DNA of 53,874 nt, from positions 1 through 53,874 of the forward strand of contig NZ_JTFC01000001.1 in assembly GCF_003991225.1 (NCBI RefSeq), written 5' to 3'. This document shows, in pieces, positions 39,638-45,719 of the stretch (position 1 is the first letter of the stretch; the number at the start of each line of letters is the position of its first letter). Below the pieces are notes generated by a model. That model was given only the letters and a program-made list of their open reading frames with translations, searched no databases and had not been told where the DNA came from. The position numbers and the translations under genes are program-made. The stretch comes from Candidatus Kurthia intestinigallinarum. Its GTDB lineage: Bacteria; Bacillota; Bacilli; Bacillales_A; Planococcaceae.

Positions 39638-41020
39638 TTATGCCGTTAAAACAGTCTTTAGTTTTTGTACCGCTTTTGGTATTTCATTCATTTGTAGATT
39701 CGCAAACCCAATAATAAACGAACGATTGGCTGTAGGTAGCATCGTTAATAGAAATCGCTCGAGTGTGAAAAGCTCCACATTTTCCTCCTGAGCTCTTGCG
39801 ATAATCTCCTCGTATGACGTAGTGGTGTCATAATGAATGATGAAATGTAGCCCTGCTGGTATATCAACAATTGTTAATTTTTCATCGAATACATGTCGCA
39901 ACTCTTGAATTAGTTTTTTACGAATGCTCTCAAAATGTTGGGCCATCGTCGCTAGATGCTTTTGGTAGTAACCGTCCTTCATAAAATAGTGCAGTGTATA
40001 TAAATTGAGCGTATTACATGAAGGAAGTAGGTGAGAAAAGTGTTCCTTATAGCGTTTTAATAATGCTGGAGGTAGCACCATATAACTAATACGAATGCCA
40101 GGAAACAATGTTTTTGAAAAGGTGCCCATATAAATCGTGCGCTGGCTTTTATCAAGGCTTTGCAGTGACGGAATATGCGCAGTTTCATACTTGTATTCAC
40201 TATCATAGTCATCCTCGATAATGTAACGCTCCTGTGGAACATTAAGCCAGTTCAGTAGCTCAAAGCGTCGTGAAATCGGCATGATGACGCCCATTGGAAA
40301 TTGATGCGCAGGCGTCGTATACAGCAGCTTTACATCACTTTTTACATGCGCTACATTAAAGCCCTGCTCATCAATGGGTACAGGGTGCACTTGCCACTGC
40401 TCTTGTTCAATTAATGTGCGGTAGCGTGCATAGCCAGGATTTTCGAGCGCAATCGTACCAGGTTCAAATAGCGCCAGTACTTGACTCATTAGACCTTGGC
40501 TAGAGGAATGAAAGATGATTTGTTCGGGCTCACAGCGTACGCCGCGTTTGAAATTTAAATGTTTCGCAAGTGTTTGACGTACTGTATAAGGACCTTGCTG
40601 ATGAGAAAGATGAGAGAGCTCATCGCGAAATTCGTGGAATGCTTTATGTTCACATTTGGCCCATTCGTTATAAGGAAATTGCTGAAGATTCGTCGCCATA
40701 TGCGAAAACGATGTGACATGGCGATGTTTATAAGGCTTCTCTTTTAACTCTTCAGGTAGTTTCGGCCACTTTTGCGTATCCTGACTATAATGCGTAATGT
40801 CCTCAACAAAATACCCTTTACGTTCTAAGCTATAGAGATAGCCCTCAACGATTAGTTGGTCGAGTGCGACAATGACGGAATTAATACTGACATTAAATTG
40901 CTCGGAAATTTTACGTTTTGATAATAGTTTTTCGTGAGGCTGATAGTTTCCTGATAAAATTTGTTCTTTGATGCGTTCGTACACAACTTGGTATTTATAT
41001 TTTTTATCTTGAAGAATCAT
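39638..41020 (-). CDS. GabR-like MocR/PdxR family transcription regulator
   Basis: This 460-aa regulator has an N-terminal GntR-type winged helix (about 1-75, KRKISEQFNVSINSVIVALD) fused to an aminotransferase-fold domain (about 105-460). The PLP lysine is in MGTFSKTLFPGIRISYMVLP (about 288-307), and the aspartate for the PLP nitrogen lies in RYIIEDDYDSEYKYE. It resembles B. subtilis GabR closely in several blocks (EGYLYSLERKGYFVE, HQFPMGVIMPISRR). GabR activates GABA catabolism when PLP reacts with GABA. ATG 41020 follows AAAGGGAG by 9 nt; an in-frame TTG at 41029 has none. It is divergent from the transporter operon, its probable target. Confidence 0.93.
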   Translation of the reverse strand: MILQDKKYKYQVVYERIKEQILSGNYQPHEKLLSKRKISEQFNVSINSVIVALDQLIVEGYLYSLERKGYFVEDITHYSQDTQKWPKLPEELKEKPYKHRHVTSFSHMATNLQQFPYNEWAKCEHKAFHEFRDELSHLSHQQGPYTVRQTLAKHLNFKRGVRCEPEQIIFHSSSQGLMSQVLALFEPGTIALENPGYARYRTLIEQEQWQVHPVPIDEQGFNVAHVKSDVKLLYTTPAHQFPMGVIMPISRRFELLNWLNVPQERYIIEDDYDSEYKYETAHIPSLQSLDKSQRTIYMGTFSKTLFPGIRISYMVLPPALLKRYKEHFSHLLPSCNTLNLYTLHYFMKDGYYQKHLATMAQHFESIRKKLIQELRHVFDEKLTIVDIPAGLHFIIHYDTTTSYEEIIARAQEENVELFTLERFLLTMLPTANRSFIIGFANLQMNEIPKAVQKLKTVLTA

Positions 41021-41045
41021 GCGGCACAACTCCCTTTAAGAAAAC

Positions 41046-41076
41046 TGGTTCTTATTTTTTTTCAAAAGTGGTTCTT
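41046..41076. repeat. direct repeat near the MocR start
   Basis: TGGTTCTT occurs at 41046-41053 and 41069-41076, 23 nt apart. It lies just upstream of the regulator gene and could be an autoregulatory site. Confidence 0.4.
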
Positions 41077-42835: not shown

Positions 42836-44197
42836 ATGACAAAAAACCAACAAGTAGCAAATTATATTAACCAAGTTTTAAGCTTAGTAGAAAAGAAAGA
42901 GTTAACGCCAGAGGATGCAAAATGGATTACAGAAGAAACAGTTGAAGGCTTCCGCGAAAATATTAACCCGGGCTTCTTAGAGTATCGTAAAACGGTAACA
43001 GTTGATAACCAATTTGCCGCAGTAGAATGGTCAGATGAGGGCTCTCATTTTAAAGATGTTAATGGTAAAGAATACATCGATTGCTTAGGCGGCTTCGGTA
43101 TTTACAATGTCGGTCACCGTAACCCGAAAGTATTAAAGGCGGTAACAGATCAATTACAACACCAAGCACTTCACTCACAGGATTTATTAGATCCACTACG
43201 CGGTATGCTTGGCAAAGTATTAGCAGAAATTACGCCAGGGGATTTAAAATATTCATTCTTCACAAATAGTGGGACGGAATCTGTAGAGTGTGCGCTGAAA
43301 ATTGCGAAAATGTACAATACAGAGCGCTCAACTTTTATCGCAGCAACAAAAGCCTTCCATGGTAAAAGTTTAGGTGCATTATCAAGCACAGCAAAAGGCA
43401 TTTTCCGTAAGCCATTCCAACCGTTAATTCCAGGATTCCGCCATGTACCATACGGTGATTTAGATTATATGCGTAAAACATTTGAAGCATGTCAGGCAAC
43501 AGGTGATGACGTAGCAGCGGTTATTTTAGAGCCAATCCAAGGTGAGGGCGGTATTATCATCCCAACGCGTGAATACTTACAAGGTGTCCGCGATTTATGT
43601 GACGAGTTCGGCGCATTATTAATCTTTGATGAAGTACAAACAGGGATGGGGCGTACAGGTGCGATGTTCGCATCCGAGTTATTCGGCGTAACACCAGATA
43701 TTTTAGCGCTAGCAAAAGCATTCGGCGGTGGTATTATGCCAGCAGGTGCGGTTGTTGGGAATGAAAAAGTATTCTCGGTATTATTCGAAAATCCATTCAT
43801 GCATACGACTACATTTGGTGGGAACCCACTTGCTTGTGCAGCAGCACTTGCGACAATTAGCGTTTTAATCGAGGACGAGCTACCACAACGTGCGGCAGAA
43901 GTCGGTGAATATATGCTAAAAGGTCTTCGCGAGGCAGCGGAAGCACACGGTGATAAAGTATTAGAAATTCGTGGTATCGGCTTAATGATCGGTATCGAAT
44001 TCCACACAGATGAAATCGGCTATGAGGTATCAAAAGGAATGTTCGATGAGGGCGTGCTTGTAGCAGGTACATTAATCAACTCGAAAACAATTCGTATTGA
44101 GCCACCACTAACCATTTCATATGAAGAGGCAGACCAAGTAATTGGGACATTTAAAAAAGTATTAGCAGAGAAGTTTGACGAAGCGTTAGTAAAATAA
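42836..44197 (+). CDS. patA: putrescine aminotransferase (class III, PatA type)
   Basis: This PLP enzyme is predicted to convert putrescine and 2-oxoglutarate to 4-aminobutanal and glutamate. It has 453 aa and shares long blocks, as I recall them, with E. coli PatA/Ygj[14 protein letters not shown] near residue 40, [18 protein letters not shown] near residue 81, [16 protein letters not shown] near residue 140, [18 protein letters not shown] near residue 223, [12 protein letters not shown] near residue 263 and the PLP-lysine region [13 protein letters not shown] near residue 291. ATG 42836 follows AAGGAGAG, 16 nt after the transporter stop. Ornithine or GABA activity cannot be excluded. Confidence 0.92.
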
Positions 44198-44225
44198 CAA
44201 ATCATATGAAAAGGGGATGACAAAA

Positions 44226-45719
44226 ATGGAAGCAACGCAAGCAGTGAAAACATTAAAAAACTATATTAATGGTGAATGGCAGGCGCCTTCATCAGACCGC
44301 GTGGAAGATGTTATTAATCCAGCGACAGGTGAAGTGATTGGGAAAATTGCCTTTTCAACAAAAGAGGATACGGAGCGTGCAATTGATGCCGCACGTCAGG
44401 CATTTGATAGTGGTGTATGGGCTGACGCAACAACGCATGAGCGCGCAGCTGTCCTGTTGAAAATTGCTGATTTAATCGAAGCTGAAGCAGAAGAACTCGC
44501 AAAAGCAGAGACAATCGATAATGGTAAAATCTTAGCCGAAGCCGAATTTGATGTAGCTGATGCGGCGACATGCTTCCGTTATTACGCGGGCATTATTATG
44601 CACCCAGATGGCGAAACCTATCACGTGCCGGACAACGTACAAGCGATGGTCGTGAAGGAGCCAGTTGGCGTGACGGGTTTAATCGTACCGTGGAATTTCC
44701 CAATTTTAATGTCTGTATGGAAACTTGCACCAGCGTTAGCAGCAGGGAACGCCATTGTATATAAGCCTTCAGAGGTAACACCAATGAATGCACAGCGTTT
44801 ATTTGAGATTTTTGAAGAAGCGGGTGTCCCACACGGTGTGGTAAATATGGTTGTCGGCGACGGTCCAACGGTCGGTCAGACAATTTCAGAAAGCCATGAG
44901 GTGGACATGGTGTCATTCACAGGAAGTACAGCAGTTGGCCGTGAAATTATGAAAGCCGCTGCTGGTAATTTGAAAAAGATTTCGCTTGAACTAGGTGGTA
45001 AATCGCCAAATATCGTTTTTGCGGATGCCGATTTAGAAACGGCGGTTGATTATGGTTTATTTGGTATTTTCTTTGGCTCAGGACAAGTGTGCTCAGCAGG
45101 GAGCCGCATCCTAGTAGAGGAAAGTATCTATGACCGCTATGTAGAGCGCTTTGCAGAGCGTGCGCAGTTGATCAAAGTAGGACCAGGGTTAGATCCTACA
45201 TCGAATATGGGTGCAATCGTTAGTGAGAAACAGTTGAATCGTATTTTAGACTATATTGAGATTGGTAAATCAGAAGGCGCGCGTCTTGTTGCAGGCGGGA
45301 AGCGTGTTGTCGATAATAATCTTGATAAAGGATTCTTTATAGAGCCAACAGTGTTTGCAGATTGTACGCCAGAGATGCGTATTGTACGAGAGGAGATTTT
45401 TGGACCGGTCGTGACGATTCAAAAATTCTCAACAGAGGAAGAAGCAATTCGTCTCGCAAATGATACCGATTATGGCCTTGCAGGGGGCGTGTTCTCGGGT
45501 GACGGTGCGAAGGCGCTGCGCGTCATTAAAAAAGTACGCGCTGGGATTACATGGGTGAATGATTACCATCCAACATATGTAGAAGCTCCTTGGGGTGGCT
45601 ACAAGCAATCTGGGATTGGTCGTAGCTTAGGCAAGTACAGCCTTGAAGAATTCCAAGAAGTGAAGCAAATTAATATCCGTTTATCTGTCGAACCAAACGG
45701 CTGGTTCCCGGCAGAGTAA
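44226..45719 (+). CDS. NAD-dependent aldehyde dehydrogenase, probably 4-aminobutanal dehydrogenase
   Basis: This 497-aa member of the ALDH superfamily has GLIVPWNFPILMSVWKLAPA near residue 150 and VSFTGSTAVG near residue 233. The general base Glu lies in SLELGGKSPNIVF near residue 257 and the catalytic Cys in SGQVCSAGSRI near residue 292. It resembles DhaS and betaine/aminobutyraldehyde dehydrogenases. Next to patA the likely substrate is 4-aminobutanal, giving GABA. ATG 44226 follows AAGGGG by 9 nt; ATG 44217 directly abuts that site. It is the last gene of the operon. Confidence 0.9.
   Translation: MEATQAVKTLKNYINGEWQAPSSDRVEDVINPATGEVIGKIAFSTKEDTERAIDAARQAFDSGVWADATTHERAAVLLKIADLIEAEAEELAKAETIDNGKILAEAEFDVADAATCFRYYAGIIMHPDGETYHVPDNVQAMVVKEPVGVTGLIVPWNFPILMSVWKLAPALAAGNAIVYKPSEVTPMNAQRLFEIFEEAGVPHGVVNMVVGDGPTVGQTISESHEVDMVSFTGSTAVGREIMKAAAGNLKKISLELGGKSPNIVFADADLETAVDYGLFGIFFGSGQVCSAGSRILVEESIYDRYVERFAERAQLIKVGPGLDPTSNMGAIVSEKQLNRILDYIEIGKSEGARLVAGGKRVVDNNLDKGFFIEPTVFADCTPEMRIVREEIFGPVVTIQKFSTEEEAIRLANDTDYGLAGGVFSGDGAKALRVIKKVRAGITWVNDYHPTYVEAPWGGYKQSGIGRSLGKYSLEEFQEVKQINIRLSVEPNGWFPAE

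Follow-up and report, generated by a model that had tools for sequence, protein, structure and literature searches.

Within the window analysed here, the first 53,874 nucleotides of contig NZ_JTFC01000001.1 of Candidatus Kurthia intestinigallinarum (assembly GCF_003991225.1, a genome of 3.93 Mb in 247 contigs, G000 below), hslO (38697–39593, window coordinates) and cysK (45841–46791) enclose an island of four genes: a regulator gene of the MocR family, divergent from genes for an NhaC-family transporter, a putrescine aminotransferase (PatA) and an aldehyde dehydrogenase (Table 1). The reading that we favour, with slightly better than even confidence, is that the island is a putrescine-catabolic operon in which the NhaC-type protein imports putrescine, PatA and the dehydrogenase convert it to gamma-aminobutyrate (GABA), and the regulator, here named PatR, is activated by GABA. 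In the proposed scheme, import would proceed by Na+/H+ coupling or by solute exchange; PatA would transaminate putrescine to 4-aminobutanal, which the dehydrogenase would convert to GABA; and the gabT-gabD pair found elsewhere in the genome, beside a GabR of its own, would complete the route to succinate. PatR would be a second GabR-type MocR protein, derived from a GABA regulon along with its operator. Carrying pyridoxal phosphate (PLP), it would bind the direct repeat TGGTTCTT-N15-TGGTTCTT just upstream of a promoter that lacks a good −35 element, and the external aldimine formed with GABA would switch that promoter on; the pathway would be induced by its own product. Bound to the operator, PatR would also sit in the leader of its own transcript and could repress itself.

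The three plus-strand genes are separated by gaps of 16 and 19 bp and are followed by a hairpin with a T run, which fits a single operon. This hairpin was missed by the terminator scan, which requires more G–C pairs and returned nothing beyond the level of shuffled sequence. An earlier model-made reading of the letters (hereafter, the sequence-only reading) had described a MocR gene divergent from NhaC-type transporter, patA and aldehyde dehydrogenase genes between hslO and cysK, and the coordinates bear it out. Its proposal that the island replaces yacD, the gene that it places at the corresponding site of B. subtilis, is not supported: hslO runs directly into cysK, with a gap of 98–220 bp, in five of eight Kurthia genomes.

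Table 1. Features of the island and their basis, in window coordinates.
Feature	Position	Strand	Basis or remark
PatR, GabR-type MocR regulator; winged helix-turn-helix (wHTH) and aminotransferase-like domain	39638–41020, or to 41029 from TTG	−	
Probable PatR operator, direct repeat TGGTTCTT-N15-TGGTTCTT	41046–41076	+	genome scan, conservation
Probable −10 box CATAAT of the operon promoter	41098–41103	+	29 bp past the second operator box
Palindrome ATGACTCGGAGTCAT	41204–41218		near the regulator's probable transcription start; kept in K. huakuii, absent from G002
Probable regulator promoter TTTTCA-17-TATAAT, extended −10	41217–41245	−	promoter scan
NhaC-family transporter, predicted putrescine carrier	41344–42819	+	TTG start with good Shine–Dalgarno sequence; ATG at 41350
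Putrescine aminotransferase PatA	42836–44197	+	PRK11522; best PDB match 4uox
Aldehyde dehydrogenase, predicted 4-aminobutanal dehydrogenase	44217–45719	+	Pfam Aldedh; patA linkage in other genera
Probable operon terminator, hairpin then T run	45745–45779	+	read from sequence

The identity of PatA as a putrescine aminotransferase is clear from its sequence. It scores 751.4 bits against the equivalog model PRK11522 (cut-off 612) and 651.1 bits against TIGR03372, slightly under the cut-off of 658.65, and its best match in the Protein Data Bank (PDB) is the E. coli putrescine aminotransferase (592 bits). The dehydrogenase belongs to Pfam Aldedh (616.8 bits) and is of uncertain subfamily; its best NCBIfam model is the betaine-aldehyde dehydrogenase TIGR01804 (620.3 bits, below the cut-off of 668.6), and it reaches 362.8 bits against TIGR03374 (cut-off 909.3) and 484.9 bits against PRK13473 (cut-off 615), the models for 4-aminobutanal dehydrogenases (ABALDH/PatD). 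Its predicted 4-aminobutanal role rests on linkage to patA, which dehydrogenases 65–79% identical to it adjoin in Robertmurraya, Cytobacillus, Ignatzschineria, Wohlfahrtiimonas and two other Planococcaceae. The earlier assignment of the operon to the putrescine-to-GABA half of the pathway is supported. The gabT-gabD pair of the same genome lies on contig C24, and its dehydrogenase best matches succinate-semialdehyde dehydrogenase (SSADH; 628 bits, cut-off 646).

The transporter, the predicted putrescine carrier, exceeds the cut-offs of the NhaC models (TIGR00931, 501.5 against 370 bits; Pfam PF03553, 222 against 23) and scores 414.8 bits against the ArcD arginine/ornithine antiporter model NF052307, below its cut-off of 650. 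No protein passes that cut-off in 121 Bacilli genomes, where the transporter is third among the matches listed. Relatives of at least 55% identity occur in 5 of 101 genomes, its own included. Among related stretches in named genomes, the best 80 of 498 were fetched, and 12 of these 80 loci carry a PatA of 73–96% identity within 10 kb (conspecific or sister-species loci are among them, and some loci are truncated at contig ends). A 124-row tree, built by a quick method after removal of near-identical rows and holding the window gene also as three short-locus copies, places the transporter in a clade of 23 rows (SH-aLRT 100), comprising 12 patA-linked rows, seven that are not and four short loci; 33 rows of common NhaC from Planococcaceae and other Bacilli form a separate clade. 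Twenty-eight columns that are near-fixed in 30 amine-clade rows differ in the 33 common rows, as may happen between any two separate clades. In a structural model built from a 40-row alignment (pLDDT 86.7, pTM 0.86), the closest PDB fold is that of MleN at a template-modelling (TM) score of 0.90, that MleN entry being itself an integrative model, followed by TRAP, INDY, NaS1 and ArsB at TM ≤0.6; a PDB search by sequence gave no match. The modelled fold supports a carrier and is silent on putrescine. We considered and dropped the idea that the transporter replaces the common NhaC in Kurthia: two genomes, G005 and G006, lack both proteins (their best matches reach 38% and 36%), which leaves no trade-off.

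The suggestion of the sequence-only reading that the NhaC-like protein carries putrescine finds indirect support in its gene neighbourhoods, which span several lineages and putrescine clusters of three types. Relatives of the transporter lie in patA–dehydrogenase clusters of Firmicutes and Gammaproteobacteria, in agmatine deiminase–patA clusters and, in the Halomonas group, in puu-like clusters. The order in Alkalihalobacillus sp. BA299 (locus L086) is AguA, AguB, transporter (58% identity), PatA (77%) and a sigma-54 activator, where the agmatine deiminase AguA scores 539 bits, over its cut-off, and the N-carbamoylputrescine amidase AguB 329 bits, below 410. Four neighbours of the relative in Vreelandella venusta (L102) have as their best NCBIfam matches gamma-glutamylputrescine synthetase, gamma-glutamyl-GABA hydrolase, PuuC and PuuR, and the cluster also has an FAD oxidase and an aminotransferase whose name is unclear; the same gene clusters are repeated in seven of eight other Halomonas/Vreelandella loci, L105 differing only in the dehydrogenase cluster. 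Of 299 genomes of the class, 24 (G000 among them) encode PatA itself at E ≤1e-150. Within about 9 kb of the 23 other Bacilli patA loci (lone ABC ATPases excluded from the count), an APC permease is found at 15, PotABCD without APC at two, Dpp at one and none of these at five. The transporter looks like one importer among several that can stand in for one another.

The regulators beside the transporter vary with lineage and include GabR, TetR, a sigma-54 activator and a PuuR-like protein. Sigma-54-type sites, expected at 0.008 per stretch from the same loci, precede the transporter in 10 of the 19 non-window clade rows. They are present in 10 of 11 rows outside the Kurthia/Gammaproteobacteria sub-clade, patA-unlinked rows included, and in none of the eight inside it; elsewhere they precede 12 of the 62 remaining rows (three rows being copies of the window gene), none of nine puu-like rows and 3 of 33 common NhaC rows. 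In L086 such sites stand before the dehydrogenase, glutamate dehydrogenase, AguA, transporter and PatA genes, which suggests that these may form one regulon. A small SAV0927-like protein (L059, 13120–13410) recurs between glutamate dehydrogenase and sigma-54 activator genes in several putrescine clusters. Related NhaC-type transporters also occur, at L083 (11480–20287) and like loci (such as L076, L087, L090, L092 and L100), beside a recurrent cluster that by the Pfam families of L083 comprises a sigma-54 activator, a class III aminotransferase, an AAT-type acyltransferase, a dehydrogenase, GNAT(-nitrilase) and alanine dehydrogenase, which might represent an acyl-protected amine route.

A genome search for the four-gene arrangement, as the sequence-only reading had proposed, found the same genes in the same order and place in the closest named record, Kurthia huakuii LAM0618 (L055), with identities of 93% for the transporter, 96% for PatA, 96% for the dehydrogenase and 80% for the regulator. 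The full island lies between hslO and cysK in two of the eight Kurthia genomes (G000 and G003), and it is better described as present in some Kurthia only. Kurthia G002 (L161) has an intact regulator gene (74–75% identity) between hslO and cysK without its operon. At 2412–2960 of this locus, the operon promoter region and Shine–Dalgarno sequence lead straight into a dehydrogenase remnant, namely the last 64 residues at 87.5% identity. If the assembly is right, the transporter gene, patA and most of the dehydrogenase gene were lost in G002 and the regulator was retained. Among the loci compared, the GabR-controlled form of the transporter–patA–dehydrogenase module was encountered in Kurthia alone. 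The earlier view that no known system has exactly this make-up is not supported as regards the module itself, which occurs in other Planococcaceae and in Ignatzschineria/Wohlfahrtiimonas with other regulators or none; the direct gene order, sometimes with a TetR gene between, is seen in Kurthia, G021, G033, Ignatzschineria and Wohlfahrtiimonas, the dehydrogenase of the module being distant (35%) in Wohlfahrtiimonas populi (L069). TetR genes lie between transporter and patA, or beside patA, at L166 (7101–7736; PF17934), L167 (7535–8146) and L170 (11119–11733), and TGAATGA-N3-TCATTCA or close palindromes are found upstream of the transporter gene (L166, L167) or in the patA–tetR gap (L170).

PatR is a GabR-type paralogue and not the gab regulator. 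It scores 601.7 bits against the NCBIfam GabR model (cut-off 600) and 437.5 bits against the PdxR model, over that cut-off of 320 but under its GabR score; pyridoxal phosphate synthesis genes are not beside it, its neighbours being hslO, the putrescine operon and cysK. Nor is it divergent from gabT or gabD: the pair on C24 is divergent from a second GabR (681.9 bits), and since C24 has its own GabR, PatR is classed as a paralogue. It is 43.5% identical to B. subtilis GabR and keeps all nine PLP/GABA contact residues listed in Table 2 of PMC6917764, including the carboxylate contacts H114, R207 and R430. The same nine are kept in 12 of 12 GabR-type rows compared, and H114, R207 and R430 are lost in two other aligned MocR proteins of G000. 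The sequence-only description of the regulator as GabR-like is upheld. The residues D105, D108 and R451 discussed for the linker of B. subtilis GabR in PMC5734734 are not kept in PatR; the gabTD-linked GabR of G000 likewise has neither R451 nor the linker acids. R451, an Asn in PatR, was tried as the GABA-binding arginine and rejected, the numbering pointing to R430, which is kept.

Matches to PatR at E ≤1e-100 occur in 8 of 121 genomes, G000 included. The closest relatives found outside Kurthia, in G040 and G055 (61% identity), are divergent from permease–gabT–gabD genes; the permease of G055 has a GABA permease as its best model (493 bits, under the cut-off of 678), and that of G040 is an APC permease of a different type. 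In a 14-row tree, the three Kurthia PatR proteins are sister to the G040/G055 proteins (100/99) and not to the Kurthia GabR. By sequence, PatR probably descends from the GabR of a GABA regulon. The sequence-only reading had left the effector open among an amine, 4-aminobutanal and GABA. Because the three carboxylate contacts are kept and the nearest kin outside Kurthia stand in gab loci, GABA is preferred over a diamine as the signal, and the likely inducer is the product of the pathway.

The candidate operator of PatR occurs as an exact TGGTTCTT-N15-TGGTTCTT once in the 3.93-Mb genome, with five more sites at one or two mismatches; a reversed-pattern control gave none, and shuffles of the window gave a mean of 0.02 sites at ≤2 mismatches. 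It is also exact in K. huakuii, and the conserved operator speaks for DNA binding by PatR. The gab loci of G040 and G055 have one copy upstream of the permease gene and another upstream of gabT; the copy at the G040 permease gene is exact and the other three carry two mismatches. Here it is position, not number, that carries weight. A one-mismatch copy at C57:10228–10258 (L224, 4229–4259) lies 77 bp upstream of an APC permease–amidohydrolase operon, which is likely to be a second member of the PatR regulon; its permease is ~40–49% identical to permeases that other genera encode next to patA or in the vicinity of the transporter gene. An ATACCA direct repeat (41220, 41257), tried as a GabR operator after the B. 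subtilis motif, has a second copy that is not kept in K. huakuii, and it was dropped because the TGGTTCTT repeat is the one that gab loci share. The B. subtilis GabR motif differs in having an inverted repeat between its direct repeats, and none was recognised in the TGGTTCTT repeat (PMC5320631, PMC9452892).

The CATAAT box lies 29 bp from the second operator box at five of eight compared sites and 28 bp from it at the two in front of gabT; in G002 the orphan site, where the first operator box is missing, shows CATACT at 28 bp. A good −35 element was not seen at the operon promoter, which fits activation by PatR. The probable regulator promoter faces the operon promoter, and the PatR transcript would cross the operator; by eye, the stretch holding it is conserved in an alignment with K. 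huakuii and, as TACACT, with G002. The palindrome ATGACTNNNAGTCAT was found only at the window site, in K. huakuii and at the C57 site in 2.86 Mb of fetched, redundant sequence, and not in G002. This shared class of palindrome suggests a possible site for a second factor common to the pat and C57 operons. No link was shown to the TetR gene that lies between transporter and patA in G021 and G033, those loci having a different palindrome, TGAATGA-N3-TCATTCA or close to it.

Several observations weigh against the favoured reading. The transporter clears the cut-off of a model named for the Na+/H+ antiporter NhaC and misses that for ArcD. Within 10 kb, seven of the 23 clade rows lack patA (some loci are truncated by contig ends), related clades stand beside other aminotransferase clusters or none, no NhaC-type gene lies near any of the 23 other patA loci, and the tree carries a long-branch warning for two paralogues of G000 (L003 and L006), which join near the common clade. 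The Puu-like neighbours in V. venusta all fall under curated cut-offs (224 against 650, 207 against 266, 690 against 850 and 179 against 211), and the FAD oxidase there is not matched to PuuB. G000 also encodes a PotD-like protein (269.6 bits, cut-off 582), a possible second putrescine importer, and an agmatinase (289.6 bits, cut-off 174.3), by which putrescine may arise internally. The NhaC-family protein could be a plain Na+/H+ antiporter whose only part is to balance the pH or sodium shift of amine catabolism, with putrescine entering by PotABCD or an APC permease, an alternative that deserves to be taken seriously and that we still hold to be unlikely. Its NhaC score, the PotD-like protein together with the permease operon bearing a PatR-type site, and the seven rows away from patA all suit an antiporter. 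Against this, the protein turns up again in pat, agu-pat and puu-like clusters, at a place where one expects a putrescine carrier and where APC or Pot systems are found at other patA loci. The 28 clade-specific columns (counted without a control) also argue otherwise, as does the precedent of the archaeal NhaC-family ArcD, for which arginine/ornithine antiport was demonstrated experimentally (PMC5300872, PMC7193027).

The proposed role of PatR meets its own difficulties: it clears the GabR cut-off only narrowly and the PdxR cut-off as well, and the contact residues might persist through descent and not for GABA. Operator sites at ≤2 mismatches number 7 in G040 and 8 in G055, against 9 and 7 for the reversed control, and promoter-like sites in the region do not exceed shuffles (16 against 15.4). 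A PatR that senses putrescine or 4-aminobutanal in place of GABA would agree with the common pattern of induction by substrate, with an operon that produces GABA and does not use it, and with the absence of D105, D108 and R451. We nevertheless consider such a sensor distinctly unlikely: all three carboxylate contacts are kept, the nearest kin outside Kurthia stand in gab loci with the same kind of operator, and the gabTD-linked GabR of G000 lacks R451 and the linker acids too.

The dehydrogenase passes the cut-off of none of its 25 listed NCBIfam matches and fits no aminobutanal subfamily model, and class III diamine aminotransferases accept several diamines, so an operon for another diamine such as cadaverine, with putrescine secondary, was considered; it is quite improbable, given that PatA exceeds the putrescine aminotransferase cut-off (751 against 612), that a GABA-type sensor suits a C4 product, that the gabT-gabD pair of the same genome completes a C4 route, and that putrescine-yielding agmatinase or agmatine deiminase genes lie near related loci.

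Taken as a GABA-responsive putrescine operon, the island has partial counterparts in several known systems. With the B. subtilis GabR/gabT-gabD(-gabP) regulon it shares the MocR architecture of the regulator, the nine contacts, the divergent layout and an intergenic direct-repeat operator; unlike B. subtilis GabR, PatR adjoins putrescine-to-GABA genes and not GABA-to-succinate genes. The sections of Suvorova and Rodionov (2016, PMC5320631) drawn on here give gabT, gabD and gabP only for GabR regulons of Firmicutes and, among Proteobacteria, describe GabR control of the putrescine genes puuA, puuD and puuLMNO in Comamonadaceae. There too a GabR-type regulator has acquired putrescine genes; that case differs in belonging to another GabR group, in its gamma-glutamyl route and in its ABC transporter (PMC5320631).

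A PatA relative beside an aldehyde dehydrogenase gene recalls the E. coli PatA–PatD route, but the Kurthia dehydrogenase is nearer to betaine-aldehyde dehydrogenases than to ABALDH (620 against 363 bits), and the Kurthia locus adds a GabR paralogue and a transporter gene. Unlike the E. coli Puu pathway, the window has PatA and no Puu enzymes. PuuP is an APC permease unrelated to NhaC, and in the Halomonas group the transporter relative stands among PuuA-, PuuD-, PuuC- and PuuR-like genes, in the place expected of an importer. The Kurthia protein shares its family with MleN and with several proteins tied to amino acids, namely haloarchaeal ArcD, first named NhaC, which exchanges cationic amino acids (PMC7193027), LysW, tied to lysine (PMC5584792), and a protein tied to tyrosine by T-box prediction (PMC2494555). 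In a weak literature search, limited to open-licence papers, no account of an NhaC-type putrescine carrier was recognised, and none of the titles on Kurthia and putrescine was about putrescine catabolism genes. Of the parts of the island, the transporter is the most interesting and the enzymes are unremarkable; the regulator puts a familiar type of sensor to a new use.

The wider proposal, for and against which we find the case evenly balanced, is that one NhaC-family branch, present in Firmicutes and in several Gammaproteobacteria, consists of unrecognised putrescine carriers that replace PuuP- or Pot-type importers in pat, agu-pat and puu-like routes. In Kurthia this carrier would have come under a duplicated GABA sensor, so that both halves of the route from putrescine to succinate would respond to the intermediate that they have in common, each by way of its own GabR paralogue and operator. 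Proteins of the branch match a model named Na+/H+ antiporter NhaC and are likely labelled so; these labels would be wrong if the branch carries putrescine, and the missing importer of several putrescine clusters would then have been found. PatR would offer a clear example of the duplication of a metabolite sensor that, with ligand site and operator preserved, was transferred to the upstream half of the same pathway.

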